Shown one piece after another: positions 36,506 through 62,464 of a stretch of 64,000 nt of DNA; position 1 is the first letter of the stretch; each line of letters begins with the position of its first letter. The notes under the pieces were generated by a model that worked only from the letters and a program-made list of their open reading frames with translations, made no database searches and was not told the DNA's origin. Source of the DNA: Adhaeribacter aerolatus (lineage in GTDB: Bacteria; Bacteroidota; Bacteroidia; Cytophagales; Hymenobacteraceae); contig NZ_BJYS01000019.1 in assembly GCF_007991635.1 (NCBI RefSeq), positions 62,001-126,000 on the forward strand, written 5' to 3'. The translations under genes and the position numbers were made by a program.

Positions 36506-36570
36506 TGATATTAATCATCAATAAAAGAGATTAATATCTTCTATAATTATTCTAATGCCCTTTACATTTG
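36506..36570 (+). promoter_or_regulatory. nos operon promoter with two FNR/CRP-like boxes
   Basis: The distal box TGATATTAATCA (36506-36517) has TGAT/ATCA arms. The proximal box AGATTAATATCT (36528-36539) has AGAT/ATCT arms. Their centres are 22 bp apart. A perfect Bacteroidota -7 element TACATTTG spans 36563-36570. The proximal centre is 29.5 bp and the distal centre 51.5 bp upstream of the -7 start, so the proximal box would lie near -42, the class II activator position. The norB promoter has the same geometry. Confidence 0.7.
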
Positions 36571-36624: not shown

Positions 36625-37149
36625 ATGAGAAAGCAAATTTCAAAACATCACAATTTACGCTGGAAAAAACTCCTTAATCCAGCGTTGGGGCTAGCCCTGA
36701 GTTGTTTCTTTTTCGTGAGTTGCTCTTCGGGCAGTAACGAGAAAAACACCCAGAGCGAGCAGGAAAACGCCGCCACCGAAAGTCCGGCTGCCGCAGCAGC
36801 ACCCGCTGCCGATGAAGGTACCGGTATTGGTCCTGTAAAAAACGTAAGTCTGGGCGCTGAAATTGACCAGGCTTTGGCTGACAAGGGAAAAGCGGTTTTC
36901 GAGAGCAAATGTACCGCCTGCCACAAGTTTGGCGAACGCTACGTAGGTCCGGATTTGGCCGGGGTAACCGAACGTCGCAAGCCCGAATGGATTATGAACA
37001 TGGTTCTGAATCCGCAGGAAATGGTACAGCAGGACCCTACCGCCAAAGAATTGCTCGGGGAGTTCATGACCCAAATGCCCAACCAGAACTTAACCGAAGA
37101 CGAAGCACGGTCCGTGCTGGAATATTTCCGGACTCAAACTAAGAAGTAA
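36625..37149 (+). CDS. Monohaem cytochrome c lipoprotein, first gene of the nos operon
   Basis: A 174-residue protein with a lipobox (FFVSC, C33) and a low-complexity Ala/Glu linker (~36-68), suggesting tethering to the outer face of the inner membrane. It has one haem c site, CTACH (C96, C99, H100), and a probable methionine axial ligand M151 (QMPNQN). Cytochromes c at this position in clade II nos clusters are thought to carry electrons to NosZ. It is 22 bp upstream of nosZ, and the -7 element is ~55 bp before its ATG. Confidence 0.9.
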   Translation: MRKQISKHHNLRWKKLLNPALGLALSCFFFVSCSSGSNEKNTQSEQENAATESPAAAAAPAADEGTGIGPVKNVSLGAEIDQALADKGKAVFESKCTACHKFGERYVGPDLAGVTERRKPEWIMNMVLNPQEMVQQDPTAKELLGEFMTQMPNQNLTEDEARSVLEYFRTQTKK

Positions 37150-37171
37150 ACCTAAACCAGTAATAAACATC

Positions 37172-39175
37172 ATGAAAAAACTAACCACATCAGTCTTAAC
37201 CGGTGCCGGTTGCCTGCTCCTGGGAACGCTTGCCCTGACCAATTGTCAGAAATCTGCACTCAGCAACGATTCGGCCATTGGTGCCGACGGCGATGCCGCT
37301 AAAAAAGTTTACGTAGCTCCGGGCAAGCACGACGAATATTACGCTTACCTTTCCGGCGGTTTTAACGGCCAGGTAGACGTATACGGGTTGCCCTCAGGCC
37401 GGTTGCTAAAAGTAATTCCGGTATTTTCGCAAAACCCCGAAAACGGCTACGGCTACAACGAAGAAACCAAGCCTATGCTGCAAACCTCGTTCGGCCAGAT
37501 TCCGTGGGACGATTTGCACCACCCCAAATTATCGCGCACCGACGGTAAGCCCGATGGCCGCTGGTTATTTGTAAACGGCAACAATACCCCCCGGATTGCC
37601 CGCTTAGACTTGACCACCTTCGAAACGGCCGAAATAATTGAGATTCCGAATAGCGCTGGCCAGCACTGCTCGCCGTACCCGACAGATAATACCGAATACG
37701 TAGTGGCCGGTACCCGCTTTGCCGTACCCATTGCCGATAATGGTGGCATTGAGGATGTACCGCTTGATACGTATAAAGACAAATTCCGGGCTTCGCTTTC
37801 TTTTATAAAAGTAGATAAAAACACCGGCCACATGGATATTGACTTCCAGATTCTGGTGCCCGGTTTCGACTTCGACTTAGCTAATGGGGGTAAAGGCCCG
37901 TCTGCTGACTGGATGTTCTTTACTTCTTATAACACCGAGAAAGCCGGTACCCTGAAAGAAATGGGCGCATCGCAGAACGATAAAGACTATTTAGCCGCCA
38001 TTAACTGGAAAAAAGCTGCCGAATATGCCCGGCAGGGCAAAGCCCGCGAAATACCGGCTAATTATTACCACAACATGATGGATGAAAAAACGCATACAGC
38101 GGTTTCTACCCAGAAGAAAACGGTACGGGTATTATTGCCCGAAGATTGCCCCGGCATGATGTACCTGATTCCGGTGCCAAAATCGCCACACGGCGTTGAC
38201 GTAGACCCTACCGGCGAAAATATTGTGGTAAGTGGTAAACTGGCGGCTGTTATTCCGGTGCACTCTTATTCTAAAATGATAAAAGCCATCGAGAATAAAT
38301 CTTATGATAATACCATTAGCGGCATCCCCGTGCTGAAATACGAAAGTGTGCTGGCCGGCGAAGTACAAAAACCAGGTTTAGGACCACTGCACACCGAGTT
38401 CGACAACAAAGGCAATGCGTATACCTCCATGTTCGTGTCTTCAGAAGTGGTAAAATGGAACGTTAAATCACGCGAAGTTTTAGATCGGATTCCGGTATAT
38501 TATTCAATCGGTCACTTAATGATACCGGGCGGCGATACCCAGAACCCCGACGGTAAATATTTACTGGCCATGAATAAAATTACCAAAGACCGTTATCTGC
38601 CTACCGGTCCGGAACTGGCCCAAACTGCCCAGCTAATTGATATCAGCGGCGATAAAATGAAAATGCTGCTCGATTTCCCTACTTTTGGCGAACCGCACTA
38701 CGCCCAGGCCATTAAAGCCGATATGGTAGCGAAAAATTCGAAAAAATTCTACCGCCTCGATGAAAATAAACACCCGCATGCCACTATTAAAGAGGCTGAT
38801 GCCCGGGTGGAACGTAAAGGCAACCAGGTTCACGTGTACATGACCGCCATTCGCAGCCACTTAGCGCCGGATAATATTGAAGGTATCCACCTGGGTGATG
38901 AGGTTTACTTCCACGTAACCAACCTGGAGCAAGACTGGGACGTACCGCACGGCTTTGCCGTAATGGGTAACCAAAACGCCGAACTGCTGGTGATGCCTGG
39001 CCAAACCAGAACCCTGAAATGGGTACCTACCAAAACCGGGGTAACACCGTTCTACTGCACCGACTTCTGCTCGGCCTTACACCAGGAAATGCAGGGTTAT
39101 GCCCGGGTTTCTCCAAAAGGTGCCAACACACCGGTTAAATTCTGGCTGGGCGAGAAAAAGAAACCCGCCATTTAA
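37172..39175 (+). CDS. nosZ: Nitrous oxide reductase, Sec-dependent clade II type
   Basis: A 667-residue copper enzyme reducing N2O to N2 in the periplasm. The N-terminus (MKKLTTSVLTGAG, then LALTNC) is a Sec signal with a lipobox-like cysteine and no twin arginine, typical of clade II (atypical) NosZ. The seven-bladed propeller contains CuZ histidines in DDLHHP, GQHCSP, SPHGVD, GPLHTEF, IGHLMIP and GEPHYAQ. The C-terminal cupredoxin has the CuA ligands CTDFCSALHQEM (C629, C633, H637, M640). All expected ligands are visible, so it should be active. It needs NosDFY and NosL, which follow. Confidence 0.97.
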   Translation: MKKLTTSVLTGAGCLLLGTLALTNCQKSALSNDSAIGADGDAAKKVYVAPGKHDEYYAYLSGGFNGQVDVYGLPSGRLLKVIPVFSQNPENGYGYNEETKPMLQTSFGQIPWDDLHHPKLSRTDGKPDGRWLFVNGNNTPRIARLDLTTFETAEIIEIPNSAGQHCSPYPTDNTEYVVAGTRFAVPIADNGGIEDVPLDTYKDKFRASLSFIKVDKNTGHMDIDFQILVPGFDFDLANGGKGPSADWMFFTSYNTEKAGTLKEMGASQNDKDYLAAINWKKAAEYARQGKAREIPANYYHNMMDEKTHTAVSTQKKTVRVLLPEDCPGMMYLIPVPKSPHGVDVDPTGENIVVSGKLAAVIPVHSYSKMIKAIENKSYDNTISGIPVLKYESVLAGEVQKPGLGPLHTEFDNKGNAYTSMFVSSEVVKWNVKSREVLDRIPVYYSIGHLMIPGGDTQNPDGKYLLAMNKITKDRYLPTGPELAQTAQLIDISGDKMKMLLDFPTFGEPHYAQAIKADMVAKNSKKFYRLDENKHPHATIKEADARVERKGNQVHVYMTAIRSHLAPDNIEGIHLGDEVYFHVTNLEQDWDVPHGFAVMGNQNAELLVMPGQTRTLKWVPTKTGVTPFYCTDFCSALHQEMQGYARVSPKGANTPVKFWLGEKKKPAI

Positions 39176-39195
39176 TAGATAACATTTAAATTCTT

Positions 39196-39228
39196 GTACC
39201 CAGGTTGCTTACAAAGCAGCCTGGGTAC
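39196..39228 (+). other. Strong hairpin between nosZ and nosL
   Basis: GTACCCAGG pairs with CCTGGGTAC, and TTGCTT with AAGCAG, giving about 15 bp of stem with a 3-4 nt loop. There is no T-run; A-rich sequence follows. It lies between genes of one apparent operon, so it may stabilise the nosZ mRNA 3' end or lower downstream expression rather than terminate fully. Confidence 0.6.
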
Positions 39229-39246
39229 TAATAAAAAAACAAGGCC

Positions 39247-40293
39247 ATGAAAAAGACCTCCACCATTTTATTACTGTTAAGCAGTGCTTTTTTAGCGGCT
39301 ATCTTTTTTGTGCCATTGTGGCATATTCGCCTGGAAGCGCCGCAATATCCCGGCGGACTCGACATGTACATCTGGATCCACCAGATTACCGGCACCGACG
39401 AATTTACCTTACAAAATATTAATATTCTGAATCACTACGTAGGCATGGAAGCCATTAAACCCGGCTCTTTTGTGGAATTAAATATTATGCCTTACGTGCT
39501 CATGGGTTTAATATTATTAAGTGTGGGCGTTTTATTCTGGCGTAACCGGAAAGCTTTGGTTGCTTATACTGCTTTATTAATAATTGCCGGTACTGTTGGC
39601 CTGGCAGATTTTTATTACTGGATTCAGGAATTCGGTAATAACCTCAGCCCGCTGGCGCCTATTAAAGTTCCGGGCATGACTTATTCGCCGCCGTTTTTAG
39701 GCATTAAAACTTTGCTAAACATTACGGCTTCTTCATTTCCGGATTTCGGCGGGTACTTTTTTGGCATAGCCGTGCTGTTATTGTTTTTAGCTATTTATTT
39801 TGCCTTTAAAAAAGAGACTAAAAGCGAAACTTTACCACTAACGTCATTCGGTAAGATTAGCGCCGTAACTACCAGCTTGCTATTATTTTCCTGTTCCGTA
39901 GAACCGCAGCCTATTGCCTACGGTAGCGATAGTTGTGATCATTGCCGCATGACCATTTCGGATAATCGGTACGGAGCCGAATTGGTTACCTCAAAAGGTA
40001 AAGCTTTTAAATTTGATTCGGCCGAATGCCTGGCGGCTTATGTGAACGAGCAAAAAAATACAGAAGCCGCCCTGTTGCTGGTAACCGATTATAACCGGCC
40101 CGGAGAATTTGTTAACGCGGCTGAAGCCATCTTTCTGCAGAGCGAGCAGCAACCCAGCCCCATGGGCCTGAACCTGACCGCCTTTGCTGACCAAAATACC
40201 GCTGCCGAAATAGCCCGCGAAAAATCCGGCCAACTGCTGCACTGGGCCGAGGTGCTGCAACTGGCTGCCGGCCAGGCCAAGCAAATGATGTAA
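39247..40293 (+). CDS. nosL: Membrane protein fused to NosL copper chaperone domain
   Basis: A 348-residue two-part protein. Residues 1-190 hold about four to five membrane helices (ILLLLSSAFLAAIFFVPLW, YVLMGLILLSVGVLF, LVAYTALLIIAGTVGLA, FFGIAVLLLFLAIYFAF). Residues ~216-348 are a NosL domain with the copper-binding CDHCRM motif (C230, C233, M235). NosL delivers Cu(I) for the NosZ CuZ site. Just before the NosL part is an internal lipobox-like LLLFSC (C216), so this looks like a joining of a polytopic protein and a lipoprotein NosL that are separate elsewhere. Continuous frame, no stop between them. Confidence 0.88.
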   Translation: MKKTSTILLLLSSAFLAAIFFVPLWHIRLEAPQYPGGLDMYIWIHQITGTDEFTLQNINILNHYVGMEAIKPGSFVELNIMPYVLMGLILLSVGVLFWRNRKALVAYTALLIIAGTVGLADFYYWIQEFGNNLSPLAPIKVPGMTYSPPFLGIKTLLNITASSFPDFGGYFFGIAVLLLFLAIYFAFKKETKSETLPLTSFGKISAVTTSLLLFSCSVEPQPIAYGSDSCDHCRMTISDNRYGAELVTSKGKAFKFDSAECLAAYVNEQKNTEAALLLVTDYNRPGEFVNAAEAIFLQSEQQPSPMGLNLTAFADQNTAAEIAREKSGQLLHWAEVLQLAAGQAKQMM

Positions 40294-40441
40294 AATATTT
40301 AAGAACTAAACAGATAGATTAATACCTAACCAGAAGACCTTTTCAATTTTGAAGGTAAAATAGGGTTAATTTGAATCTAACATATCTAATCTAATCGTGT
40401 TCCATCCAGGATTAACCGGAAGGGCAACATCCAACTAAAAA

Positions 40442-41722
40442 ATGACAACATTTCCCCAACATAGCAGAAACTTTTTATTTACCGTGCTGGCCCTGGTGCT
40501 GCCGGTTCTGTTGGGGGCAGCAACTATTCTCGCCAAAACCCTTACGGTGAGTCCCACCGGAAAAATCCGGTCGGTAAAAGAGGCCGTGCGGTTGGCGCAG
40601 CCCTACGATACCATTTGGGTTAATGCCGGAATATACCACGAAAACGAAATTACTATAGATAAACCGCTGGCCATTATTGGCCGGCAACAGGCGGTACTGG
40701 ATGCCAGGTTTAAAAAAGGCATTTTCTCGGTAATGGCGGAAAATGTATTAATTGCGGGCCTTACCCTCCAGAACGTAGAAGAAAGCTTTACCAAAAATTA
40801 TGCAGCGGTGCGGGTGCGCGGCGGCGGCCACGTAACGGTACGGAATAATACCATTTTAAATTCTTATTACGGCGTATACCTGGAGCAAACCGATAGCTGC
40901 ACCGTGAGCCACAATTTAATTCGTGGCAATGCCAAACAAGAATCTACTTCCGGCAATGCTATTCATTTATGGCGGACCGACCATATAAATATTGTATCGA
41001 ATAAAGTATCGGGCCACCGCGACGGTATTTACCTGGAAACATCCAGCAACAGTACCATCACCGGTAATATCAGCCAGAACAACTTGCGTTATGGTTTGCA
41101 TTTTATGTTTTCCGATAACAACAGCTACCAGCGCAATCAGTTTATGCGCAACGGATCGGGTATTGCCGTTATGTACTCCCGCAATATTATCATGACTGAT
41201 AATTTATTTGAGGAAAACTGGGGTGCGGCCGCTTACGGCATTCTGCTGAAAGATATTACCGACGGCTACATAGAACGGAATATTTTCCGGCAAAACACCA
41301 CCGGTATTTACGCCGAAGGTTCTTCGCGGCTTCTTCTCAAAAACAACGAGTTCCGGAACAATGGCTGGGCCGTGCGCCTGTTGGGCAGCAGCGAAGACTT
41401 AACCTTTGAGCAAAATAACTTTATCGGGAATACTTTCGAAATTAGTACCAGCACCAATTACAGCAGCCACAATACTTTCCGGGCCAATTACTGGAGCAGC
41501 TATACCGGCTACGACCTAGACAAGGACGGCACCGGCGATGTACCGCACAAACCGGTGAAACTATTTTCTTACCTGCTCGAAGATATACCAACTTCGGTGG
41601 TGTTGCTGCGCAGCTTGTTTATAGATTTGCTGGAGCTGATGGAAAAGGTGGCCCCGGTGCTTACCCCCGAAAACGTACTGGATAACGAGCCCAGTACCCG
41701 TTTAAACGTTTGGAAGTCATGA
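40442..41722 (+). CDS. nosD: Nitrous oxide reductase maturation protein NosD
   Basis: A 426-residue periplasmic right-handed beta-helix protein. An N-terminal signal segment (LALVLPVLLGAATILA) is followed by parallel-beta repeats such as GNAIHLWRTDHINIVSNKVSGHRDGIYLE-type coils, with regularly spaced Asn and Gly, and a C-terminal YWSSYTGYDLDKDGTGDVPH. NosD works with the NosFY ABC transporter to supply sulfur for the Cu4S2 CuZ centre of NosZ. Its stop overlaps the nosF start (ATGA at 41719-41722), indicating translational coupling. Confidence 0.94.
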   Translation: MTTFPQHSRNFLFTVLALVLPVLLGAATILAKTLTVSPTGKIRSVKEAVRLAQPYDTIWVNAGIYHENEITIDKPLAIIGRQQAVLDARFKKGIFSVMAENVLIAGLTLQNVEESFTKNYAAVRVRGGGHVTVRNNTILNSYYGVYLEQTDSCTVSHNLIRGNAKQESTSGNAIHLWRTDHINIVSNKVSGHRDGIYLETSSNSTITGNISQNNLRYGLHFMFSDNNSYQRNQFMRNGSGIAVMYSRNIIMTDNLFEENWGAAAYGILLKDITDGYIERNIFRQNTTGIYAEGSSRLLLKNNEFRNNGWAVRLLGSSEDLTFEQNNFIGNTFEISTSTNYSSHNTFRANYWSSYTGYDLDKDGTGDVPHKPVKLFSYLLEDIPTSVVLLRSLFIDLLELMEKVAPVLTPENVLDNEPSTRLNVWKS

Positions 41723-42456
41723 TAGAAATAAGAAATATAGCCAAGGCATTTGGTAAGTTACAGGTGCTCAATGGTATTGATATAAGCCTGGAGAAAGGAA
41801 AAATATATGCTTTTCTGGGTCCTAATGGCTCCGGCAAAACTACGCTCATTAAAAGCATATTGGGTTTAACCCAACCCGATAAGGGAGAAATATTTATTCA
41901 AGACGAAAACATAAAAGATAACTGGCGCTACAAAAGCCGCATTGGTTACATGCCGCAGATTGCCCGGTTTCCTGAGAACCTGAATATGATGGAATTATTT
42001 CGCATGACCATGGATATCCGGAAGACGCCTGCCAACGAAGAAAAATATATTTCTTATTTTAACCTGGAAGACGCGCGCGATAAAAAGCTTAAAAACCTAT
42101 CGGGTGGCACCAAACAAAAAGTAAATGCCGTTCTGGCCTTTATGTTTAACCCCGATATCCTCATTTTTGATGAACCATCGGTGGGTCTGGACCCGGTATC
42201 GCACCTGAAGCTGAAAGATTTGATACGCGAAGAACGTGATAAGGGCAAAACCATTTTGCTGACCACGCACATATTGAGCGAAGTAGAAGAACTGGCCGAT
42301 GAAGTAATATTCCTGCTCGAAGGCAAGATATACTTTAAAGGCACAGTGCAAAACCTGGTGCAAACCCAGAATGAGCGCAACCTCGAACGAGCCATTGCCC
42401 AACTATTGCTGCAATCCGAAAAAAAAACTAAAAAGCTTAATCTAAAAGCGGCATGA
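41719..42456 (+). CDS. nosF: ABC transporter ATP-binding protein NosF
   Basis: A 245-residue ABC ATPase. It has Walker A GPNGSGKTT (~residues 35-43), Q-loop region YMPQIARFP, signature LSGGTKQK, Walker B ILIFDEPSVGLDP and the switch histidine in LLTTHILSE. It pairs with NosY to power sulfur-species export to NosD during CuZ assembly. The ATG at 41719 overlaps the nosD stop; a start three codons upstream is possible but less coupled. The 3' end overlaps the nosY start by 4 bp. Confidence 0.95.
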   Translation: MIEIRNIAKAFGKLQVLNGIDISLEKGKIYAFLGPNGSGKTTLIKSILGLTQPDKGEIFIQDENIKDNWRYKSRIGYMPQIARFPENLNMMELFRMTMDIRKTPANEEKYISYFNLEDARDKKLKNLSGGTKQKVNAVLAFMFNPDILIFDEPSVGLDPVSHLKLKDLIREERDKGKTILLTTHILSEVEELADEVIFLLEGKIYFKGTVQNLVQTQNERNLERAIAQLLLQSEKKTKKLNLKAA

Positions 42457-43241
42457 ACTCTTTAACCAAAATAATTAAATATTCTTTTTACGACACCTGG
42501 CGAAGCTGGTGGGCGCTGCTCTACGGCTTGTTTTTTCTCGTAATTTCGGTTACGCTGCTGTACTTCTCCGGCGATTTTAACAAAGCCCTGGTCAGTTTGC
42601 TGAATATTATACTATTGCTGGTGCCCCTAATCAGCACCGTGTTTGGGGTGATGTACGCTTATAACTCCCGCGAATTTACCGAACTGTTACTGGCTCAACC
42701 TCTTAAGCGCAATAATATTTTTCTGGGCCAGTATTTAGGCTTAACCTTGTCGCTGATGTTAAGCCTGGGTTTAGGTTTAGGCATTGCTTTTATATTATTT
42801 GCCGGCACCGCCGAAGAGAGCGTGCATTTGGGTATGCTCACGCTGTGCGGCGCTTTGCTTACCGCTATTTTTACCGGTCTGGCTTTTCTGGTATCGGTAT
42901 TGTTCGAAGACCGGGTAAAAGGTTTTGGCATTGCTATCCTGATTTGGCTTTTTGCCGCGGTTATTTACGATGGCTTGCTGCTGGCCTTCCTGGTTATTTT
43001 CAACGATTACCCTTTAGAGAAAGCCACCATCGGCCTGACTTTATTCAACCCCATTGATTTGTCGCGTATTCTGATTTTACTGCGTTTGGAAACGGCTGCC
43101 TTGCTGGGCTACACCGGTGCCGTATTTAATAAATTTTTCGGTACAGCGTCAGGTATGGCGGTGTCGCTGGGGGCTTTGTTGCTATGGATAATAATTCCCC
43201 TGGTAATATTCCTGCGAAAAGTACAACATAAAGATTTTTAA
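42453..43241 (+). CDS. nosY: ABC transporter permease NosY
   Basis: A 262-residue polytopic protein with six predicted membrane helices (WALLYGLFFLVISVTLLYF, LVSLLNIILLLVPLISTVFG, YLGLTLSLMLSLGLGLGIAF, LLTAIFTGLAFLVSVLF, GIAILIWLFAAVIYDGLLLAF, AVSLGALLLWIIIPLVIFL). It is the membrane partner of NosF in NosZ maturation. It starts within the nosF stop (ATGA overlap). Closest relatives by layout are ABC-2-type permeases. Confidence 0.93.
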   Translation: MNSLTKIIKYSFYDTWRSWWALLYGLFFLVISVTLLYFSGDFNKALVSLLNIILLLVPLISTVFGVMYAYNSREFTELLLAQPLKRNNIFLGQYLGLTLSLMLSLGLGLGIAFILFAGTAEESVHLGMLTLCGALLTAIFTGLAFLVSVLFEDRVKGFGIAILIWLFAAVIYDGLLLAFLVIFNDYPLEKATIGLTLFNPIDLSRILILLRLETAALLGYTGAVFNKFFGTASGMAVSLGALLLWIIIPLVIFLRKVQHKDF

Positions 43242-43828: not shown

Positions 43829-45616
43829 TTAGGTTAATAGTAACTGCTCTTTGCTTTGGTTTAATTGCGCCTGCATTTGTTCCTGTTCCGCTTTTCCGGT
43901 AAATATTTGGGGTATTATTTCTTCGTAGTAGGAGATACCCTGGAGTAGATTCTGGCGGAATGCCTGCAAATATTTCTGTTGCTTGTCGGTTACCGGTGGT
44001 ACTTGTTCTGCAACCAGGTTCCGGAAATAATCGAGGTACATTTTTAATTCGTTCAGGAATAGGTGTGGCCGGTGAGTTTGGTTGAGCAGGTTGGTGCGGC
44101 CGTAAATATGATCTACCATCTGGGCCAAAGAAAAAACACCGGAGAAATAAGCCAGGTTAGGGCCGGGGCAAATAGCCACGGGACGATTTTCGGGTTTCCG
44201 GCCAATTTGGAGCACCTGCAAAGCTGCGTTGGCCAAACCATCGCACAAGCATTCTTTGGCAAGTACTTTTTGAGCTTTTTCCTGGTACTCAGCTACGGGT
44301 AAGTCCAAAGCCTGCAACTGGTTAAGTTTTAATTTCTGGTATTTACGCGAAGCCGTGCAGATGGGCGTTTCGGTAAACTCGGTGTTAGATACCAGGTACT
44401 TTTTGGTGCAGGGGCTACCAGGCCGGTCACGGCCGATGCGGTATTCTTTTACTTCTTCGCTGCTGGTGTTCCGCAAGGCGTTAAACGGCACGCCCAAAGG
44501 CGAAATAGGACTCAGGTATAAATCCTCGGCGCGGGCTTGCACCAGTTTTTCCAGGGTATCGGCATCTATGGTGGTGGCTTCGGGCACGAGCAGGAAAGGC
44601 GTTCCCCAACCGGTGGCTTCTACCCCGTAATATTCGATTAAGAAGTTTTGTTCGGCGGCAGTGCCGATGCCCCCCTGTACGGTTACCCGCTGATCCGGCA
44701 CCACTGATGCAACCGGTAATCCTTTTTGGGTAAGGGCCGACTGGTACATTCCGAATAATTCTTTTTGCAGGCTTTGCCGGTTTTGTTTAAACTCTTCCAA
44801 AATGGGGCCTAATAAATATCCATCGGTGGCAAAGGCGTGGCCGCCGCAATTTAAACCCGATTCGATCCGGAACTCCGAAACCCAGATTCCTTTTTTAGCC
44901 AATATCTTGCCCTGCACCAGCGCCGAGCGGTAATCACTCACTTTTATAATTACTTTTTTGCGGAAGTTACCAGCCGCATCTGGCTGAAAATCGGCAAACT
45001 GGTCGAGGTAAGCGTAAAGCCGCATATTCATACCCGCCGAAAACACCACCGATGCCGCAACCGAACTGTTGGCAAAACCCCGTAGCGCTGCCAGCGCGTC
45101 GGAATATTCCGGAGGCAACGGCTCACCGTTTTTCCGGTAGTTGGTTTTATCTAATTTGGTCATAATATTTACATCAATGGCGCCGGGCTGCACCATGGCA
45201 CGTAAAGCGTCCTCCGCCTGCTTTATCTCTTCCGGATTCGAAAGTTGCAGCATTTGTAAATATTGCGCTTTAACGGGTGAGGTGTCGGGCAGTAATGTAA
45301 AATATTTGGTCAGGTCCGATTCCGGGGTAAAAGGTTGGCGCCTCAAATTTTCGGTTTGGGCCAAAACCAATTTGTCTAATAAATTCAGGTAGGCCGTAAC
45401 ACGCCGGGCCCGGAAATCTTCCTGATCGGTACCAATGGGGGTAAAGGGTTCTTCGTTAAGCCGGCTGTAATATTCCCGCATTTGTTCCAGCAAGGTATCA
45501 TCGCTTAGCGACAACACCGAGGAAATGCCGTAACGGGCCACTTTCAACGGCGTATCAATAGAAAAAGCAAGTCCCATAACCGGGATGTGGAAGGTGTGTA
45601 GGCGGGTTGGTTGCAT
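43829..45616 (-). CDS. Unrecognised protein with nitronate monooxygenase-like barrel and Cys-rich C-terminal region
   Basis: A 595-residue soluble protein I cannot name. Parts resemble the FMN-binding nitronate monooxygenase/2-nitropropane dioxygenase barrel: start FHIPVMGLAFSIDTPLKVARYG, then NCGGHAFATDG (cf. GxEAGGHxG; residues 257-266), VQGGIGTA (313-320) and GVEATGWGTPFLLVPEAT (331-348). A family-atypical insertion lies at ~45-170. The C-terminal third has cysteines C403, C420, C456, C458 and C483, which could hold a metal or Fe-S centre. No signal peptide. Its upstream region carries the same two-box promoter layout as nos and norB, so a role in NO/N2O metabolism is inferred. Reaction unknown. 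Confidence 0.72.
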   Translation of the reverse strand: MQPTRLHTFHIPVMGLAFSIDTPLKVARYGISSVLSLSDDTLLEQMREYYSRLNEEPFTPIGTDQEDFRARRVTAYLNLLDKLVLAQTENLRRQPFTPESDLTKYFTLLPDTSPVKAQYLQMLQLSNPEEIKQAEDALRAMVQPGAIDVNIMTKLDKTNYRKNGEPLPPEYSDALAALRGFANSSVAASVVFSAGMNMRLYAYLDQFADFQPDAAGNFRKKVIIKVSDYRSALVQGKILAKKGIWVSEFRIESGLNCGGHAFATDGYLLGPILEEFKQNRQSLQKELFGMYQSALTQKGLPVASVVPDQRVTVQGGIGTAAEQNFLIEYYGVEATGWGTPFLLVPEATTIDADTLEKLVQARAEDLYLSPISPLGVPFNALRNTSSEEVKEYRIGRDRPGSPCTKKYLVSNTEFTETPICTASRKYQKLKLNQLQALDLPVAEYQEKAQKVLAKECLCDGLANAALQVLQIGRKPENRPVAICPGPNLAYFSGVFSLAQMVDHIYGRTNLLNQTHRPHLFLNELKMYLDYFRNLVAEQVPPVTDKQQKYLQAFRQNLLQGISYYEEIIPQIFTGKAEQEQMQAQLNQSKEQLLLT

Positions 45617-45947
45617 CTTAGAGAAATTTAAATTAGTTTGGTAAAGACAAGAATCAGAATTAGCCTATTATATAAATTATTATATAAATAGATGCGTCGT
45701 CGCCTTGCCGGTTCCGAAAGGTAGCGTGGTTAATATGGTTCTGGCATGACCAGGATTAGTAGCCCGGTTGATATCCATCATTGTTTTTTAAATTAGGCGT
45801 TTCTATACCGGGCGGGTTTAGCATTATCTGATGCGGGTTACATTATTTTATGATCAAAGTCCTTTTACAGATGGCCGGCTTCGGGTAATTTGCCTTCGTT
45901 TCTGATGCCGGAATAAAGGGTCAGGGCGGTTTATATTATTTAAAAAC
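45617..45947. other. Divergent intergenic region
   Basis: 331 bp between the flavoprotein-like gene (minus) and the polytopic membrane protein gene (plus). It holds the minus-strand two-box promoter at 45716-45780. I see no convincing -7 element for the plus-strand gene and no small gene. Confidence 0.45.
45716..45780 (-). promoter_or_regulatory. Two-box FNR/CRP-like promoter for the flavoprotein-like gene
   Basis: Distal box TGATATCCATCA (45769-45780), preceded by T, gives near-perfect TTGAT/ATCAT arms. A weaker proximal box, read on the minus strand as TAATCCTGGTCA (45747-45758), is centred 22 bp closer. The minus-strand -7 element TACCTTTC (45723 down to 45716) has one mismatch to TAnnTTTG. 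Distances of 29.5 and 51.5 bp match the nos and norB promoters exactly. Confidence 0.55.
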
Positions 45948-47234
45948 GTGAAAAATACCTGGCTTAAAACAGCACTTCTTAATTTTGTCGTAGTTGCCTT
46001 GCTGGGTTTATTTCTGCGTTGGTTTATGGTTTCGCCGCCAGTTGGTTTTAACTATAAATACCTGCTCCACGCGCATTCGCACATAGCTATTCTGGGTTGG
46101 CTGTTTTCGGCCTTCTTTGTGGCTTTGCTGGGCGCTTACCTACCGGAAAAAAATCGGAATAATAAAATTTACCGGTGGCAGTTCTGGCTGGGACAATTAA
46201 CGGTGGTGGGTATGTTGTGTAGTTTTCCGGTGCAGGGCTACGGGCTTTATTCGATTGTATTTTCTACCCTGCATATTTTTATCAGTTATTGGTTTATTTA
46301 CCAATTTTTAAAGGATAGCCGTAAGGAAAGCCTTATTAAAAGCCAGCATTTAATTTCCTTTAAATTTATTAAAGCTTCGCTATATTTTCTGGCGCTATCC
46401 ACGCTGGGTCCCTGGGCAATGGGGCCGATAATGGCTACCGGCGGCAGCGGCAGCCATTTGTATTACAATGCCATTTATTTTTATCTGCATTTTCAGTACA
46501 ATGGCTGGCTTAGTTTTGCCGCGCTTGGTTTGCTGTTCTGGTTACTGGAGAAAAAACAAGTGCCTTTTAGTCGGGCCGACGCTAGCTGGTTTTTTAATTT
46601 ATTCTTCTGGGCCTGCCTGCCCGGTTATTTATTGTCGGTGCTATGGATTAAACCGCCGGCCATTATTTACTACCTGGCCGGATTAGCCGCCGTGATGCAA
46701 GTTATTGGCTTGCTCTTATTTTTACGTTTGCTTTACCGGCACCGCCTGGCTATTAGTCGGCTTTTTACCGGTTGGAGCAGTATCTTCTTTTCTTTGGCGA
46801 TTATCTGTTTTACTTTAAAGATAATAATGCAACTAGCTACGGCCATTCCTTTTATGGCCGATTTGGCTTACTCCGTACGCAATTTTATAATCGGCTATTT
46901 GCACCTGGTATTAATTGGCTTTGTCACCTTCTTTTTGTTCGCCTACTTTATTCAGCAGGGGCAATTTAGCATTTACCGTAAGGTTAGCCGCTGGGGCTTA
47001 GGTATATTTATCGCCGGTTTTTTTCTGAGCGAAACCTTATTATTTATGCAAGGTCTGTTTTTCTGGGCGGGTTGGGGTATGCTGCCGGAATATTTTCGTC
47101 TGCTGTTCTGGGTAAGTACTTTGTTGCCAATCGGACTGATTCTTTTTCTGGCCGGACAGCAGGGAAATAAAACAATTACGGAAAGTAAAATCAAAATCCA
47201 TAAAAATGCGTTTAATCCGGTTTCCAGACATTGA
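45948..47234 (+). CDS. Polytopic His-containing membrane protein, haem-copper/NnrS-like
   Basis: A 428-residue protein with about twelve membrane helices and a GTG start. Histidines fall inside or at the ends of helices: HAHSHIAILGW (H41, H43, H45), YFYLHFQYNGW and GYLHLVLIGF. Such spacing resembles haem- or copper-binding helices of the haem-copper oxidase and NnrS groups, but the full catalytic ligand set of an oxidase or NorB is not apparent. Its place in the NO/N2O island, divergent from the flavoprotein-like gene, suggests an NO-related membrane function. Function unknown. Confidence 0.7.
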   Translation: MKNTWLKTALLNFVVVALLGLFLRWFMVSPPVGFNYKYLLHAHSHIAILGWLFSAFFVALLGAYLPEKNRNNKIYRWQFWLGQLTVVGMLCSFPVQGYGLYSIVFSTLHIFISYWFIYQFLKDSRKESLIKSQHLISFKFIKASLYFLALSTLGPWAMGPIMATGGSGSHLYYNAIYFYLHFQYNGWLSFAALGLLFWLLEKKQVPFSRADASWFFNLFFWACLPGYLLSVLWIKPPAIIYYLAGLAAVMQVIGLLLFLRLLYRHRLAISRLFTGWSSIFFSLAIICFTLKIIMQLATAIPFMADLAYSVRNFIIGYLHLVLIGFVTFFLFAYFIQQGQFSIYRKVSRWGLGIFIAGFFLSETLLFMQGLFFWAGWGMLPEYFRLLFWVSTLLPIGLILFLAGQQGNKTITESKIKIHKNAFNPVSRH

Positions 47235-55547: not shown

Positions 55548-55612
55548 TGATAAATATCACAAAAACAGATGATTGTTGTCATAAACCAGATTTCAGGACC
55601 TTTTTACCTTTG
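55548..55612 (+). promoter_or_regulatory. norB promoter with two FNR/CRP-like boxes
   Basis: The distal box TGATAAATATCA (55548-55559) has perfect TGAT/ATCA arms. The proximal box TGATTGTTGTCA (55570-55581) is centred 22 bp downstream. A perfect -7 element TACCTTTG spans 55605-55612. Distances of 29.5 and 51.5 bp to the -7 element equal those of the nos promoter. The predicted leader is ~140 nt. Confidence 0.72.
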
Positions 55613-55758: not shown

Positions 55759-58110
55759 ATGAAATACACCAGGTTATGGCTGGGATTCATCGCCGTAATA
55801 GTCGGTTCCTTTGCTGTTTTAGGGTATTATGGTTCGGAAATCTACCGGAAGGCGCCACCTATTCCGGATAAGGTTGTTACAGATTCGGGTCAGGTATTAT
55901 TTACCGGGCAGGATATTAAAGACGGACAAAATGTCTGGCAATCGATGGGAGGGCAGGAGGTAGGTTCGGTTTGGGGCCACGGCGCCTACCAGGCACCCGA
56001 CTGGACCGCTGAATGGCTGCACAAAGAGGCGATATTTATGCTGGATGCCTGGGCCAAAGCCGAAAAAGGCAAAAACTTTGCTTCTCTGGATGTCGAAAGC
56101 AAAGCTGGTTTGGAAGCTCGCCTCCAAGCGCAAATCCGTCAGAATACTTACGACCAGCAAGCCGGCACTCTTACCGTATCAGATGGGCGGGCGGCGGCCA
56201 TTGCCGACGTAAGCCGTTATTATACGGGCTTATTTACGAACGATGCGGCCATGGCCGAATACCGTGAAGCTTACGCTATTCCGGATAACAGCATTAAAGA
56301 CCCGGAACGGATGCGCCAGATGAATGCCTTTTTCTTTTGGGCATCCTGGGCCTGCGTAACCGAACGCCCCGGCGAAAAAATATCGTACACAAATAACTGG
56401 CCGCACGAAAAATTAGTCGGTAATGAACCCAGCAGCGACCTTATTATCTGGACCGGCTTTAGCGTAATTGTATTAATTGCCGGGGTGGGTTTATTGGCCT
56501 ATTATTATGCCTCTAATAAAGAAGAAGAGCTGGATATTAGCAAGCTGCCGCAGAAAGACCCATTACTGGGACTGGAGCCAACACCCTCAATGCGCGCAAC
56601 GCTTAAATATTTCTGGACGGTTACTGCCTTAATATTGGTACAAGTAATGATGGGGGTAGTTACGGCACACTACGGCGTAGAAGGGCAGGCGCTGTACGGT
56701 TTGCCGTTGGCCGAGATTTTACCTTACTCCATCTCCCGGACCTGGCACGTGCAACTGGCTATTTTCTGGATTGCGACTTCCTGGCTGGCCACCGGTTTAT
56801 TTATTGCCCCGGCTGTTTCGGGCCACGAACCTAAATTTCAACGGGCCGGCGTTAACTTTTTGTTTATTGCCTTGCTTATTATTGTGGTAGGTTCTTTGGC
56901 CGGACAGTGGTTTGGCGTCATGCAGAAACTGGGCCTGGTCGAAAATTTCTGGTTTGGGCACCAGGGCTACGAATACGTTGATTTAGGGCGTTTCTGGCAA
57001 ATATTCCTGCTGGTAGGCTTGTTTTTGTGGCTGTTCCTGATGACCCGGGCCATTTGGCCGGCGTTTAAAAAAGATGCCGAAGGCCGCCATTTACTGGGAA
57101 TGTTCCTGATTTCGTCGGTAGCCATTGCGGTATTCTACGGCGCCGGTTTAATGTGGGGCCGCCAAACCAACCTGGCTATTGCCGAGTACTGGCGCTGGTG
57201 GGTAGTGCATCTGTGGGTAGAAGGCTTCTTCGAAGTATTTGCAACCGTGGTAATTGCCTTTTTATTCGTGCGTATGGGCTTACTGCGCACCAAAATTGCC
57301 ACGCCCACGGTTTTATTTTCCACCATTATATTCCTCTTCGGCGGCATAATCGGTACATTTCACCACCTGTATTTCAGCGGTACGCCTACATCGGTACTGG
57401 CCCTGGGCGCCACCTTTAGCGCCCTGGAAGTAGTACCCCTGGTATTAATTGGTTTCGAAGCTTACCATAATTTAGAACTAAGCCGTTCTACCTCCTGGAT
57501 TAAAGCCTATAAATGGCCCATCTACTGCTTTATTGCGGTGGCATTCTGGAACTTGGTGGGAGCAGGTATTTTTGGCTTCGTTATCAATCCGCCCATTGCC
57601 TTGTATTATATGCAAGGATTAAATACTACTCCGGTTCACGGCCACACTGCTTTGTTTGGCGTGTACGGTGTATTAGGTATTGGTTTAATGTTATTCGCCC
57701 TGAAAGGCATGGCTGCCCGCAATGTTTGGAAAGATGGCGTTATCAGCTTTGCCTTCTGGAGTATCAATATTGGTTTGGGCCTGATGGTTATAATCAGTGT
57801 GCTGCCGATTGGCTTGCTGCAAACCTGGGCGAGTGTAGAACACGGCTTGTGGTACGCCCGCTCCATGGAATTCATGCAAACCGATACCATGGAAATATTG
57901 CGCTGGCTAAGGGTAATTGGCGACACCATTTTTGCCCTGGGTGTGGTAGCATTGGCCTGGTTCGTAGTCGGATTAAAGACCGGCTGGTCTTTGCACCCTC
58001 ATACTGATATTTCACCGGAAAATTACCCGACCGTTAAACCGGCTGGTGAAGCCTCTCTGGTTAATAAAAAAAGAAAAAGCCTGAGCAACCAGAAAATCAA
58101 AGAGGCCTGA
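55759..58110 (+). CDS. norB: Quinol-dependent nitric oxide reductase (qNOR)
   Basis: A 783-residue single-chain NO reductase (2 NO to N2O) of the inner membrane. An N-terminal helix and large periplasmic domain (GQNVWQSMGGQEVGSVWGHGAYQAPDW) replace the NorC subunit and lack a haem c motif, as expected for quinol enzymes. The following 12-helix NorB core carries haem and FeB histidines, e.g. SRTWHVQLAIFWIATSW, WWVVHLWVEGFFEV, GTFHHLYFSG and TPVHGHTALFGVYG. Length fits qNOR. Its product N2O would feed NosZ at the other end of the island. Confidence 0.96.
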   Translation: MKYTRLWLGFIAVIVGSFAVLGYYGSEIYRKAPPIPDKVVTDSGQVLFTGQDIKDGQNVWQSMGGQEVGSVWGHGAYQAPDWTAEWLHKEAIFMLDAWAKAEKGKNFASLDVESKAGLEARLQAQIRQNTYDQQAGTLTVSDGRAAAIADVSRYYTGLFTNDAAMAEYREAYAIPDNSIKDPERMRQMNAFFFWASWACVTERPGEKISYTNNWPHEKLVGNEPSSDLIIWTGFSVIVLIAGVGLLAYYYASNKEEELDISKLPQKDPLLGLEPTPSMRATLKYFWTVTALILVQVMMGVVTAHYGVEGQALYGLPLAEILPYSISRTWHVQLAIFWIATSWLATGLFIAPAVSGHEPKFQRAGVNFLFIALLIIVVGSLAGQWFGVMQKLGLVENFWFGHQGYEYVDLGRFWQIFLLVGLFLWLFLMTRAIWPAFKKDAEGRHLLGMFLISSVAIAVFYGAGLMWGRQTNLAIAEYWRWWVVHLWVEGFFEVFATVVIAFLFVRMGLLRTKIATPTVLFSTIIFLFGGIIGTFHHLYFSGTPTSVLALGATFSALEVVPLVLIGFEAYHNLELSRSTSWIKAYKWPIYCFIAVAFWNLVGAGIFGFVINPPIALYYMQGLNTTPVHGHTALFGVYGVLGIGLMLFALKGMAARNVWKDGVISFAFWSINIGLGLMVIISVLPIGLLQTWASVEHGLWYARSMEFMQTDTMEILRWLRVIGDTIFALGVVALAWFVVGLKTGWSLHPHTDISPENYPTVKPAGEASLVNKKRKSLSNQKIKEA

Positions 58111-58279: not shown

Positions 58280-59230
58280 ATGGAAACCATTGATTTTTTA
58301 GACGTAACCGTAATAGAACCCCGCTTAAAGCACCCCACTATTTTTAACCGTTTCGACAACCTGACTGGCGGCGAAAGTTTGGTAATTCACAACGACCACG
58401 ACCCAAAACCGCTGTATTACCAACTGCTGGGCGAGCGGGGCAATATTTTTAAATGGGAATATTTATCCCAGGGTCCGGAAATTTGGGAAGTACGCATTAC
58501 TAAGCTTACCCCGGAGGAAGGCGAAACCATAGGCGAACTGGTAACCAAAGATTACCGGAAAGCCGAAATATTTAAAAAGTATGGGCTGGATTTCTGCTGC
58601 GGCGGTAAAAAATCGGTGGCGCGGGCTTGCGCAGAAAAAGGTATAAACCCGGTTCTGGTAGAACAGGAATTAAACGCCCTCACCGAAACACCGGTAGCCC
58701 GCACCCAGAATTTTAATGCCTGGGATTTAAGCTTTTTGGCCGATTATATTGAAAATACCCACCATACCTATGTGCGCGAAAGCTTGCCTGCCTTATCGGA
58801 ATATACTACTAAAATTGCCCGGGTACACGGCGAGCGCCATCCGGAACTAATAGAGATAGCCCGGCACTTTGTCGCCATTGCAGCTGAGTTGAACGCCCAC
58901 ATGCCCAAAGAAGAACGGGTTTTATTTCCGTACATCCGGCGGTTAAACGAGGCCGATAAATCTGGCGCTACTTTGGTAAAGCCCGGCTTTGGCAGTATCC
59001 AAAACCCGATAAACATGATGGAAATGGAACACGAAGCAGCCGGCAGCTCACTGGAAGCCATCCGGGAATTGAGTAACAATTATACCGTACCCGCTGATGG
59101 CTGCACCACGTACCGCCTGGCTTTTGCCAAACTGCAGGAATTTGAAAGCGACCTGCACCAGCACATTCACCTGGAAAACAATATTTTGTTCCCGAAAGCT
59201 ATTGAGCTGGAGCAGAAAGTTTTCTCCTGA
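58280..59230 (+). CDS. ric: Iron-sulfur cluster repair protein RIC (ScdA/YtfE) with N-terminal DUF2249 domain
   Basis: A 316-residue cytosolic protein. Residues 1-~75 form a DUF2249 domain (FNRFDNLTGGESLVIHNDHDP). The ScdA N-domain follows with FKKYGLDFCCGGKKSVARAC (~95-115), then a hemerythrin-like domain (~145-316; NTHHTYVRESL, HMPKEERVLFPYI, MEMEHEAAG, HQHIHLENNILFP). RIC proteins restore Fe-S clusters damaged by NO or oxidants. The DUF2249 fusion is an addition to the basic YtfE plan. It lies 170 bp after norB; TACCTTTA at 58231-58238 may give it its own promoter. Confidence 0.92.
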   Translation: METIDFLDVTVIEPRLKHPTIFNRFDNLTGGESLVIHNDHDPKPLYYQLLGERGNIFKWEYLSQGPEIWEVRITKLTPEEGETIGELVTKDYRKAEIFKKYGLDFCCGGKKSVARACAEKGINPVLVEQELNALTETPVARTQNFNAWDLSFLADYIENTHHTYVRESLPALSEYTTKIARVHGERHPELIEIARHFVAIAAELNAHMPKEERVLFPYIRRLNEADKSGATLVKPGFGSIQNPINMMEMEHEAAGSSLEAIRELSNNYTVPADGCTTYRLAFAKLQEFESDLHQHIHLENNILFPKAIELEQKVFS

Positions 59231-59284
59231 ATATAATCGGGTTTTAAAACTTATTCTTTTTCTGGAAACCAAAACAAAATAATA

Positions 59285-59788
59285 ATGGAAACAATAGTTA
59301 AACCCCTGAAAAGACATCCTGAATTAGTCGCCCTGTCAAGGGAACATCATTTTGAGTTGCTTTTTTCCTGGAAAATAAAACAGGGGCTGGCCCGTAAGGT
59401 CGACAGCCGGATCATTCAGGATTATATTAACTATTTCTGGGACCATCATTTAGAAAGCCACCTGGAAAAAGAAGATAAAATTGTAGTGCAAATTTTATCG
59501 GAGGCAGATCCGATGCGGTTCCGGGTGCAACAAGACCACGACCTCATCCGAAGTGTTATTAACTACCTTTCCAGCTACCGGGAGAACATTGATTATGTGC
59601 TGAACACCTTACAAATTTTAGTTAAAGAGCACGTAAGGTTCGAAGAGCGGGTATTTTTCCCGTACCTGGAAAAGGTAGCTACTCCCGGCCAACTCATATT
59701 AGTGGGTCTGGAAATAGAAAAACACGCCGAAAAGCCAACCGACGATTTTGAACCGGCTTTCTGGTTTTCCCAGCCCGAAAATAATTAA
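59285..59788 (+). CDS. Hemerythrin domain-containing protein
   Basis: A 167-residue predicted four-helix bundle. Candidate di-iron ligands: H21 or H22 (SREHHFEL), H59 with E63 (HLEKED), H85 (QQDHDL), and H116 with E120 (HVRFEER). It is related to the 49845-50327 protein (shared SxEHHxxLLFxWKI and FWDxHL patterns). It probably binds NO or O2 or helps iron-centre repair next to RIC. It lies 54 bp after ric in the same operon. Confidence 0.88.
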   Translation: METIVKPLKRHPELVALSREHHFELLFSWKIKQGLARKVDSRIIQDYINYFWDHHLESHLEKEDKIVVQILSEADPMRFRVQQDHDLIRSVINYLSSYRENIDYVLNTLQILVKEHVRFEERVFFPYLEKVATPGQLILVGLEIEKHAEKPTDDFEPAFWFSQPENN

Positions 59789-59806
59789 TTAGAAGACACC
59801 TGACCC

Positions 59807-60643
59807 ATGAGCCAGTTAACGCCTCCCTTAAAAATTAATGCCGAAACCCGCATTTCAACCTTAATACGGGCAAATCCGGCTACCATTGAGGCCATAGCGT
59901 CCATTAACAAGCACTTTGAAAAGCTGCGCAACCCGCTGCTGCGCAAAGTGCTGGCCTCACGGGTAACCATTGCCGATGCCGCCCGCATTGGCGGCACCAG
60001 CGTGGAAGTATTTTTTGAAAAATTAAAAGCGCTCGGTTTTGTTTCTGAAAGGGCCGGCGCCGTAACCCCTAACCCGGTTACAGCGCCGCTACCCGATTTG
60101 CCGCCCGTAGGCTTAACCTTAGATGTACGGGAAGGTTTGCAGCAGGGGCTTGACCCATTTAAAGAAATAATGGCTGCTGCCGAAAACCTGCCGGCCGGCA
60201 AAAGCCTGTTAATTATTAATACTTTTGAACCCATTCCGCTGTACGCCATCCTGCGGAAAAAAGGATTTACCCATTACACCTGCCAGTCTGCCGATAACCT
60301 GGTGCATACGTATTTTTACCAGGCTGGTCCGGCGGTGGCGCCGGATAAGCCGCTCCCGAATGCAGAAAAACCTTTTAAAAACCTGTACCGGCAATACCAG
60401 CACAACCTGGTAGAACTGGATGTCCGGAACCTGGAAATGCCGCTGCCCATGATGACTATTCTGGAAGCAGTGCACAAACTTTTAGCGGGGCAGGCTTTGC
60501 TGGTGTACCATTGCCGGGTACCCCAGTATTTATTGCCCCAATTAGCCGAGAACGGGTTTGGCTGGGCTGTAGCCAACCCGTCTCCCGGCGAGGTGCGCCT
60601 GCTGATTTATAAATTACCTGGCCATGAACTTACTAACCGCTAA
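59807..60643 (+). CDS. DUF1858 plus tandem DUF2249 protein
   Basis: A 278-residue cytosolic protein in three parts. Residues ~5-75 resemble DUF1858 (ETRISTLIRANPATIEAI, ITIADAARIGG-type text). Two DUF2249 repeats follow: ~105-170 (LDVREGLQQGLDPF, LLIINTFEPIPLYAILRKKGF) and ~200-275 (LDVRNLEMPLPMMTILEAV, LLVYHCRVPQYLLPQLAENGF). DUF2249 is also fused to RIC here. These domains recur in denitrification and NO-response clusters, but their chemistry is not established. The 3' end overlaps the next gene by 20 bp. Confidence 0.85.
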   Translation: MSQLTPPLKINAETRISTLIRANPATIEAIASINKHFEKLRNPLLRKVLASRVTIADAARIGGTSVEVFFEKLKALGFVSERAGAVTPNPVTAPLPDLPPVGLTLDVREGLQQGLDPFKEIMAAAENLPAGKSLLIINTFEPIPLYAILRKKGFTHYTCQSADNLVHTYFYQAGPAVAPDKPLPNAEKPFKNLYRQYQHNLVELDVRNLEMPLPMMTILEAVHKLLAGQALLVYHCRVPQYLLPQLAENGFGWAVANPSPGEVRLLIYKLPGHELTNR

Positions 60644-61889: not shown

Positions 61890-61910
61890 CATTAAGAAAA
61901 GAATTTCACC

Positions 61911-62276
61911 ATGACACCGGAACAAAATTTTGGCGAGCATATCTACGAGTTGTTAAAGCAAGTAATAGACCCGGAAATTGGCTTAAACATTGTAGATTTG
62001 GGATTAGTATACGAAGTGGCTTTGGCAGAAGATAAAACCATAACTGTTACCATGACCTTAACTTCGCCCGGCTGCCCCATGGGCCAAATGATTACGGGTG
62101 CGGTTAACAACGTGCTGGAAAAGCATTACCCGGATTATAATATTAAAGTTGATTTGGTATGGATACCCATGTGGGATGCCGATATGATTTCGGAAGCCGG
62201 CCAGGCCCAGTTAAACGGCGGCTACCAGCCGCAGCAACGCGATCACGGCGGTAGCTTGTGGGACCGGTTTTTTTAG
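61911..62276 (+). CDS. MIP18/DUF59 family metal-sulfur cluster assembly factor
   Basis: A 121-residue protein of the SufT/PaaD-like MIP18 family. The visible elements are QVIDPEIGLNIVDLGLVYEV (~residues 16-35), TMTLTSPGCPMGQMI with the conserved cysteine (~48-62), and VDLVWIPMWDADMISE. Members help assemble or mature Fe-S proteins. It lies 21 bp after the haem-copper-like gene, so the norB-ric block appears to include Fe-S rebuilding as well as repair. Confidence 0.9.
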   Translation: MTPEQNFGEHIYELLKQVIDPEIGLNIVDLGLVYEVALAEDKTITVTMTLTSPGCPMGQMITGAVNNVLEKHYPDYNIKVDLVWIPMWDADMISEAGQAQLNGGYQPQQRDHGGSLWDRFF

Positions 62277-62442
62277 AAAAAGAAATTATTTACCTCTTCT
62301 CTTTAAATAAACCAACAGTTTCGAATTTTGCCAGTATACTTACCTCTGATTACACCGAATAAAAATCCGTTTAAGAATATTGCCTGATAGATTTTAGGAA
62401 ATGCTTTGCCAACGGGTACAGAAAATTTAATTAAAAATAATC

Positions 62443-62456: not shown

Positions 62457-62464
62457 CCAATGGT

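Follow-up and report, generated by a model that had tools for sequence, protein, structure and literature searches.

The described systems closest to the gene reported here belong to the nitronate monooxygenase (NMO) superfamily of flavin mononucleotide (FMN) barrel proteins. Helicobacter pylori FabX is described as an acyl-acyl carrier protein (acyl-ACP) dehydrogenase/isomerase of this superfamily that carries both FMN and a [4Fe-4S] cluster; the contacts given for its FMN include N99, E175, Q240 and T243, it uses H182, and the cluster, held by C300, C304, C308 and C320 (C-x3-C-x3-C-x11-C), stores an electron (PMC8626469). Another NMO-type protein, NGO1024 (Npd) of Neisseria gonorrhoeae, is reported to be induced in anaerobic growth (PMC3032703) and, as cited in PMC11300592, is indispensable for making unsaturated fatty acids anaerobically. 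We analyzed a 64,000-nucleotide stretch of the Adhaeribacter aerolatus genome (GCF_007991635.1, contig NZ_BJYS01000019.1, positions 62,001 to 126,000), referred to below as the window. It contains a gene for a 595-amino acid (aa) protein which, in our overall best reading (probability about 0.5), is an iron-sulfur (Fe-S)/FMN oxidoreductase of a low-oxygen/nitric oxide (NO) regulon, FabX-like in its action. The features of the gene and its product are as follows.

43829..45616, reverse strand: gene for a predicted FMN-barrel, multi-cysteine flavoprotein of 595 aa (open reading frame (ORF) with ATG start; family alignment, AlphaFold2 and Foldseek).
44594..45592, reverse strand: predicted (beta/alpha) barrel, residues 9-341 (DSSP of the model; hhalign to the FabX-like family covers it from about residue 112 onward).
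45194..45415, reverse strand: block of helices inserted after strand 2 and before strand 3, about residues 68-141 (model).
44831..44851, reverse strand: NCGGHAF, residues 256-262, putative catalytic-histidine motif with the extra cysteine C257 (conservation; aligned to GGH of FabX-like proteins).
44594..44680, reverse strand: VQGGIGTA...GWGTPF, residues 313-341, candidate FMN-phosphate-binding strands 7/8 (alignment, conservation).
44168..44410, reverse strand: C-terminal cysteine region C403-x16-C420-x35-C456-L-C458-x24-C483, candidate Fe-S site (alignment, conservation).

An earlier, sequence-only reading of this locus had proposed an unrecognised NMO-like flavoprotein acting in nitrogen-oxide metabolism. 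The ORF, the three motifs it quoted (NCGGHAF from residue 256, VQGGIGTA from residue 313 and GVEATGWGTPF from residue 331) and the five C-terminal cysteines (403, 420, 456, 458 and 483) are all present, and C257 within NCGGH is a sixth. The insertion it placed near residues 45-170 exists in the model as a helical block, but is best located at about residues 68-141; judged by residue spacing, this block appears longer than its counterpart in FabX.

The window protein matched no Pfam family at E values up to 5 (the gathering score of PF03060 was not reached) and no NCBIfam model at E up to 0.01. It belongs to a conserved family that has no name in the copies of these libraries used. For the same reason its relation to NMO is a remote one. 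Searches of PDB sequences yielded a single match with the protein (E 0.92) and ten with its profile (best E 1), all of the latter spurious. The gene had no match in the plasmid collection searched, none was obtained at E 0.001 in the viral structure library, and no description of the family was found in the open-licence PMC literature, which is not proof of absence. Relative to the libraries and literature searched, the family appears to be new, as do its insertion, the arrangement of its cysteines and its place in the regulon, while the superfamily and the likely chemistry are already known.

The gene is carried by A. rhizoryzae DK36 (89% identity), by 19 of 59 relatives and by 127 of 345 sampled Bacteroidota; one of these 127 genomes (G344) holds a C-terminal fragment only and was left out, giving 126 full-length carriers. 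Of 98 genomes from the phylum to which genome G402 (locus L040) belongs, 34 also gave matches, some of them partial or split; that this phylum is Calditrichota is taken from the title of the L040 record. The gene is nearly always single-copy, the exceptions being G208, with two full-length copies, and G151 and G001, with extra fragments. In G001 a broken C-terminal remnant (C22:49434-49673, L020) lies about 4.5 kb from nosZ, and the intact copy is on another contig.

Conservation was assessed on 75 distinct homologues collected from loci without a motif filter, among which Pontibacter is over-represented, and on a family alignment (A1) of 19 sequences. Residues N150, E252, C257, G258, G259, H260, G315, G316, G336, P340, F341 and C403 are invariant in all 75 homologues, and H260 is also kept in 19/19 sequences of A1. 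C420, C456, C458 and C483 occur in 74 of the 75, the remaining row being gapped there. A further set of 71 sequences was picked by the motifs H.FH.PV.G and GGH, so the conservation of these motifs within it is circular, and conservation claims were taken from the other two sets. Since the C-terminal cysteines are kept across homologues collected without a motif filter, they are not a chance feature; in the family alignment, the profile alignment and the 75 homologues they form a conserved set that is compatible with an Fe-S centre, as had been suggested.

An AlphaFold2 model of the window protein with 19 homologues (pLDDT 73, pTM 0.73) has strands and helices that follow a (beta/alpha) barrel; a second model was made for a Maribellus homologue (pLDDT 64, pTM 0.58), the underlying alignments containing 16-20 sequences. 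In a Foldseek search of the PDB, ranks 1-5 for the window model were H. pylori FabX (E 6.8e-6 to 8.9e-5, probability 1.00), and the NMO-family nitroalkane oxidase 4qis followed at rank 9, with pyruvate phosphate dikinase and malate synthase in between. For the Maribellus model FabX occupied ranks 1-4 (best E 9.9e-4), followed by NMO 6bka (rank 5), several DAHP synthases and, among the lower ranks, an enoyl reductase domain (4z38, rank 10) and 2-nitropropane dioxygenase (2gjl, rank 21). Both models, of moderate and low confidence, rank FabX first; together with the profile alignment described below they support a (beta/alpha) barrel with kinship to NMO-superfamily proteins.

Searches for PF03060 in 24 chosen genomes, and with three of the matches in the 345 genomes, provided a sequence bridge to FabX. 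They revealed two further types of cysteine-tailed flavoprotein: one of about 500 aa (A3; NMO proteins L127, L129, L145 and L150-L165; 16/345 genomes) and one of about 420 aa (ten loci, L166-L175, from one Bacteroidota genus). A protein of the latter type, L167, matches FabX at 6.6e-28 over the barrel. When 71 homologues of the window protein were compared with the ten ~420-aa FabX-like proteins, hhalign gave 76.3% with 286 columns in order; none of 40 block-shuffled controls reached 76% (best 14%), and the reversed profile and IMPDH, another barrel, gave 0.2% and 0.3%, respectively. The alignment includes N150 and pairs DVNIMTKLDKTN with FLNCMEKLTMNN, SAGMNMR with AAGLNLR, ESGLNCGGH with EGPLAGGH (that is, H260 with the GGH histidine of the FabX-like proteins), QGGIGTA with AGGIFTG, WGTPF with VATRF, and ECLCDGLAN with TCLCTGMAN. 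Merging NMO with the ~420-aa type gave 53.5%, and merging it with the ~500-aa type 31.9%.

The window gene, the A3 type and the ~420-aa type were grouped in the present analysis by a GGH barrel motif followed, after the barrel, by C-x(12-19)-C-x(22-35)-C-L-C, and all three display this pattern, with spacings of x16/x35 in the window gene, x19/x22 in L129 and x12/x25 in L167. Because the C...C...CLC outline is common to both intermediate types, it is likely that the window protein carries an Fe-S centre with a ligand pattern different from that of FabX. Through the intermediate alignment the family keeps the asparagine and histidine motifs corresponding to those of FabX; the cysteine spacing of FabX is not kept. 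The tail of the ~420-aa type (CLC...C..C) is also unlike FabX's own cluster motif.

The regions upstream of the gene were scanned with the pattern TGAY-N4-RTCA, the core of FNR/DNR-type boxes such as the published DNR box TTGATnnnnATCAA (PMC1274295). Besides two sites inside genes, the window contains four intergenic ones.

45769..45780, no strand assigned: FNR/DNR-type box TGATATCCATCA, in the interval separating the gene from its divergent neighbour at 45948 (pattern scan).
36506..36517, no strand assigned: same box, located 119 bp ahead of the leading nos operon gene (pattern scan).
55548..55581, no strand assigned: two boxes between the genes for class II ribonucleotide reductase and the qNOR-type nitric oxide reductase (pattern scan).

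None of 100 shuffles of the window contained six such sites (mean 1.5). Across the genome the pattern shows no enrichment, with 141 sites as opposed to 229 for a backwards control, so the evidence lies in the positions of the boxes. Among 67 distinct upstream regions (up to 300 bp) of homologous genes the box was found in 23, and dinucleotide shuffles of these regions (n=200) contained 0.86 +/- 1.0 boxes, at most 5; this count is partly post hoc, since the pattern had been spotted by eye in five of these sequences beforehand. In 20 distant stretches the gene has the box in 4/19 cases (L089-L092) and other ORFs in 6/213 (p 0.005); L093, in which the start was not found by pattern, is absent from the upstream counts. 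FNR, CRP and HcpR-like boxes with fixed half-sites showed no clear excess in the upstream regions. The box upstream of the gene is thus common to the nos and nor genes, as for a member of an FNR/DNR-type denitrification regulon, and the gene appears to be switched on together with those that consume NO and nitrous oxide (N2O). Near the gene in Pontibacter loci (L022-L037) lies a divergent pair, thioredoxin-like and proline-dehydrogenase-like as judged by eye (clusters 10 and 11), with the FNR-type box upstream in 10/10 and 8/10 members.

Co-occurrence with nosZ, qNOR and desaturase was counted in the 345 Bacteroidota genomes, taking only matches over the curated cut-offs. The gene and clade II nosZ occur together in 61 genomes, while 65 have the gene without nosZ, 52 have nosZ without the gene and 167 have neither (p 4.9e-6). 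The gene is present in 24 of the 33 qNOR genomes, and for nosZ or qNOR the corresponding counts are 77/49/58/161 (p 3.6e-10, odds ratio 4.4). Stratified by family, for genomes whose family was readable from the listings, the odds ratios are 2.5 for nosZ (p 0.009), 3.2 for nosZ or qNOR (p 0.001) and 2.8 for qNOR alone (p 0.08). In the window's own family (14/3/0/20, p 1.1e-7) all 14 nosZ genomes carry the gene, as opposed to 3/23 genomes without nosZ; among the genomes listed for family f41 the gene is found in 22/22 and 8/18, respectively. At least 18 of the 61 genomes with both have the gene and nosZ on one contig at a distance of 3-14 kb, a lower bound picked by eye from coordinates, and these genomes represent five families. 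The same spacing is seen in 6/14 genomes of the window's family (genome G000 is common to both sets). The co-occurrence is real but loose: the association is significant, yet 49 of the 126 carriers have neither clade II nosZ nor qNOR, the two markers counted (cNOR, nirK and nirS lay outside the count). These carriers go part of the way toward what the sequence-only reading had named as a refutation, namely homologues spread in genomes lacking NO/N2O genes. The ~500-aa A3 type never occurs with the gene (0/16 genomes), whereas nosZ is present in 11 of these 16; the type is a possible functional stand-in for the window gene.

The surroundings of the gene in the window are as follows.

36625..43241, forward strand: nos operon with genes for cytochrome c, clade II nosZ, nosL, nosD, an ABC ATPase and a permease, the last by position only (Pfam/NCBIfam).
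45948..47234, forward strand: divergent gene for a 428-aa membrane protein with an HAHSH motif (neighbourhood comparison; BLASTP).
52020-55328: class II ribonucleotide reductase (B12-dependent), oriented divergently to qNOR; the two FNR-type boxes listed above lie in the interval.
55759..58110, forward strand: qNOR-type nitric oxide reductase (PF22085 and COX1).
58280..62965, forward strand: NO-response-type genes (ScdA_N/hemerythrin, hemerythrin, DUF2249, COX1-like, Fe-S assembly, Rrf2).

The HAHSH membrane protein had no Pfam or NCBIfam match. Its homologues were found in 15 of 20 stretches (the window and L021-L039), all 15 of Pontibacter and Adhaeribacter type; in only four of them (the window, L021, L023 and L033) is the homologue directly beside the gene, and most Pontibacter have one to three intervening genes. 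In L093, from a distant family, a 22%-identical homologue (BLASTP E 3e-5) follows the gene, which is preceded by Rrf2 and ScdA-like genes. In L087 the gene follows Rrf2 at a distance of 25 bp and is grouped with ScdA-, DUF2249- and COX1-like genes, and in L089 it comes directly after the nos genes; no such neighbour was seen in most of the remaining 20 distant stretches. Four genes that we take to be paaABCD (phenylacetyl-CoA epoxidase) lie directly upstream of the gene in L035 (5329-8324, a Chlorobiota metagenome-assembled genome (MAG)) and about 7 kb away in L038 (19087-21753, a Bacteroidetes MAG). They were not seen in the other 38 stretches compared, and this linkage was set aside.

One rival explanation, in line with the sequence-only reading, is a nitrogen-oxide enzyme proper: an oxidase or reductase of nitronates, nitro or nitroso compounds, with the task of detoxifying what NO chemistry produces. 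The Rrf2-linked arrangements in L087 and L093, the box in common with nos and qNOR, and the presence of NMO-superfamily structures among the Foldseek matches are in its favour. They are opposed by the 49 carriers without nosZ and qNOR, by the four genomes of L035, L038, L039 and L040, none of which has a clade II NosZ over the cut-off (0/4), and by the closest solved structure, that of an acyl-ACP enzyme, as well as by a cysteine cluster foreign to NMO. We consider this explanation unlikely. The tie to NO/N2O genes holds, through the operator-like sites, the closeness to nosZ and the co-occurrence; a nitro/nitroso role in particular is not supported, since FabX acts on acyl-ACP and many carriers lack both marker genes.

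We favour instead a FabX-like Fe-S/FMN oxidoreductase and propose the following mode of action. The gene product would belong to the NMO/FabK/FabX superfamily and act in the cytoplasm as an FMN oxidoreductase. Its barrel would be enlarged, and C403, C420, C456 and C458 are candidate ligands of a C-terminal Fe-S site, with C483 and/or C257 near the cluster. H260, acting as a base, would take a proton from a substrate held over FMN, a hydride or electrons would pass to FMN, and the Fe-S cluster would store electrons or relay them to an acceptor. Under low oxygen or NO an activator of the FNR/DNR type would drive transcription of the gene together with nosZ and qNOR. The computations themselves show the family, its conservation, a relation to barrel-type folds, the common upstream box, the co-occurrence and the proximity to nosZ; from these the cofactors, the chemistry, the location and the regulation are inferred. 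By analogy with FabX and, as cited, NGO1024, the substrate may be an acyl-ACP or acyl-coenzyme A (acyl-CoA), which we offer as a tentative guess; a compound derived from nitrogen oxides is an improbable substrate.

Several results weigh against this reading. The confidence of both models is moderate to poor (pLDDT 73 and 64) and, for the window protein, lowest over residues 337-411 and near the cysteines of the C-terminus. The TM-scores of the top FabX matches are low (0.31/0.46 for the window model and 0.24/0.37 for the Maribellus model), so the structural result is a statement on fold family, not a precise superposition. No sequence match to FabX or another relevant PDB chain was obtained. 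In the first profile comparison, of A1 with three sequences, the probability was 0.2%; the profile gave 4.1% with the ~500-aa type alone and 1.9% with NMO/FabK alone, which was rejected as the home family of the gene. The highest hhalign value, 96.8% for a pooled profile, is not relied on, because shuffled controls of that profile reached 98.9% in 1/20 and 1/40 cases (on 9 and 25 columns), and the ~420-aa comparison (0/40) was used instead. Thirteen of the 23 box-bearing upstream regions come from the window's own family, and in a Pontibacter-dominated count with untrimmed starts the box precedes the gene in 10/40 cases and other ORFs in 55/509. To these are added a cysteine spacing (C-x16-C-x35-C-x-C-x24-C) unlike that of FabX, and the lack of any recognised gene of fatty acid synthesis near it in the stretches read.

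The aerobic desaturase (PF00487) belongs to the same side of the balance: it is present in 101/126 carriers and 101/219 non-carriers (odds ratio 4.7). Replacement of this desaturase by the gene product was not borne out, as the desaturase is commoner in carriers, and this speaks against a simple anaerobic desaturase substitute and in favour of an aerobic or facultative lifestyle. This affects the idea of a true step of unsaturated fatty acid synthesis (FabX/UfaA function, UfaA being a name of NGO1024), needed when di-iron desaturases fail for lack of oxygen or because of NO. FabX is first in both structural searches, 25/126 carriers have no PF00487 desaturase over the cut-off, 19 of these 25 possess nosZ or qNOR, and the gonococcal NGO1024 offers a reported precedent (PMC3032703, PMC11300592). 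Against it stand the 101 desaturase-bearing carriers, the absence of recognised fatty-acid-synthesis neighbours, and 21 of 118 desaturase-less non-carriers which have nosZ or qNOR yet do not have the gene; we regard it as rather unlikely.

The desaturase association is as strong as that with nosZ or qNOR (4.7 and 4.4), and adjacent genes vary widely over the 20 distant stretches. Both observations would suit a general low-oxygen or aerobic-respiration gene, linked to nosZ and qNOR merely by shared lifestyle and a broad FNR-type regulon. This explanation is possible, if doubtful: it sits poorly with the split by nosZ in the window's family, with the counts for f41 and with the closeness of the two genes in five families.

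The FabX-like oxidoreductase described above, taken a step further, would be an undescribed FMN and Fe-S enzyme class of denitrifying Bacteroidota and their relatives, switched on with NO/N2O respiration. It would keep acyl-thioester oxidation (e.g. for membrane unsaturation) going without oxygen or when NO poisons di-iron desaturases, and its Fe-S centre would hand electrons on to a respiratory acceptor, with the HAHSH membrane protein as a possible intermediary. In this complete form the model is speculative and quite improbable. What has been found is a strongly conserved, nearly always single-copy enzyme in about one third of the sampled Bacteroidota and Calditrichota that has no family model in the Pfam and NCBIfam copies used, is often near nosZ and is apparently under common control with nosZ and qNOR. 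If it is a FabX-type Fe-S flavoenzyme, it would supply a biochemical step so far missing from growth on nitrogen oxides, and would be a candidate for membrane-lipid making during denitrification in organisms with oxygen-dependent desaturases.

Among known systems, NMO and FabK (PF03060, TIGR03151) have a catalytic-histidine motif like that of the window protein and probably belong with it to the FMN-barrel superfamily, as judged from models of moderate and low confidence, but they have no such cysteine site, and the window protein has no Pfam or NCBIfam match. The A3 and ~420-aa proteins have in common with it the GGH, GG(I/F/H)x and GT/AT(R/A)F motifs and C...C...CLC near the C-terminus; they differ in that three A3 proteins are recognised by PF03060, and L167 by its similarity to FabX/FabK. 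To our knowledge, no function has been described for either type. FabX (HP0773; PDB 7e1q, 9lt5, 9jsy) is the top structural match of both models and has a barrel with a GGH histidine, matched via the intermediate family and not directly, and a cysteine region C-terminal to the barrel; at 363 aa it is shorter than the window protein, which has extra helices and a longer C-terminus. In its proposed role the window gene resembles NGO1024, likened to it by description and not by sequence, as an anaerobically induced NMO-type protein of a denitrifier.

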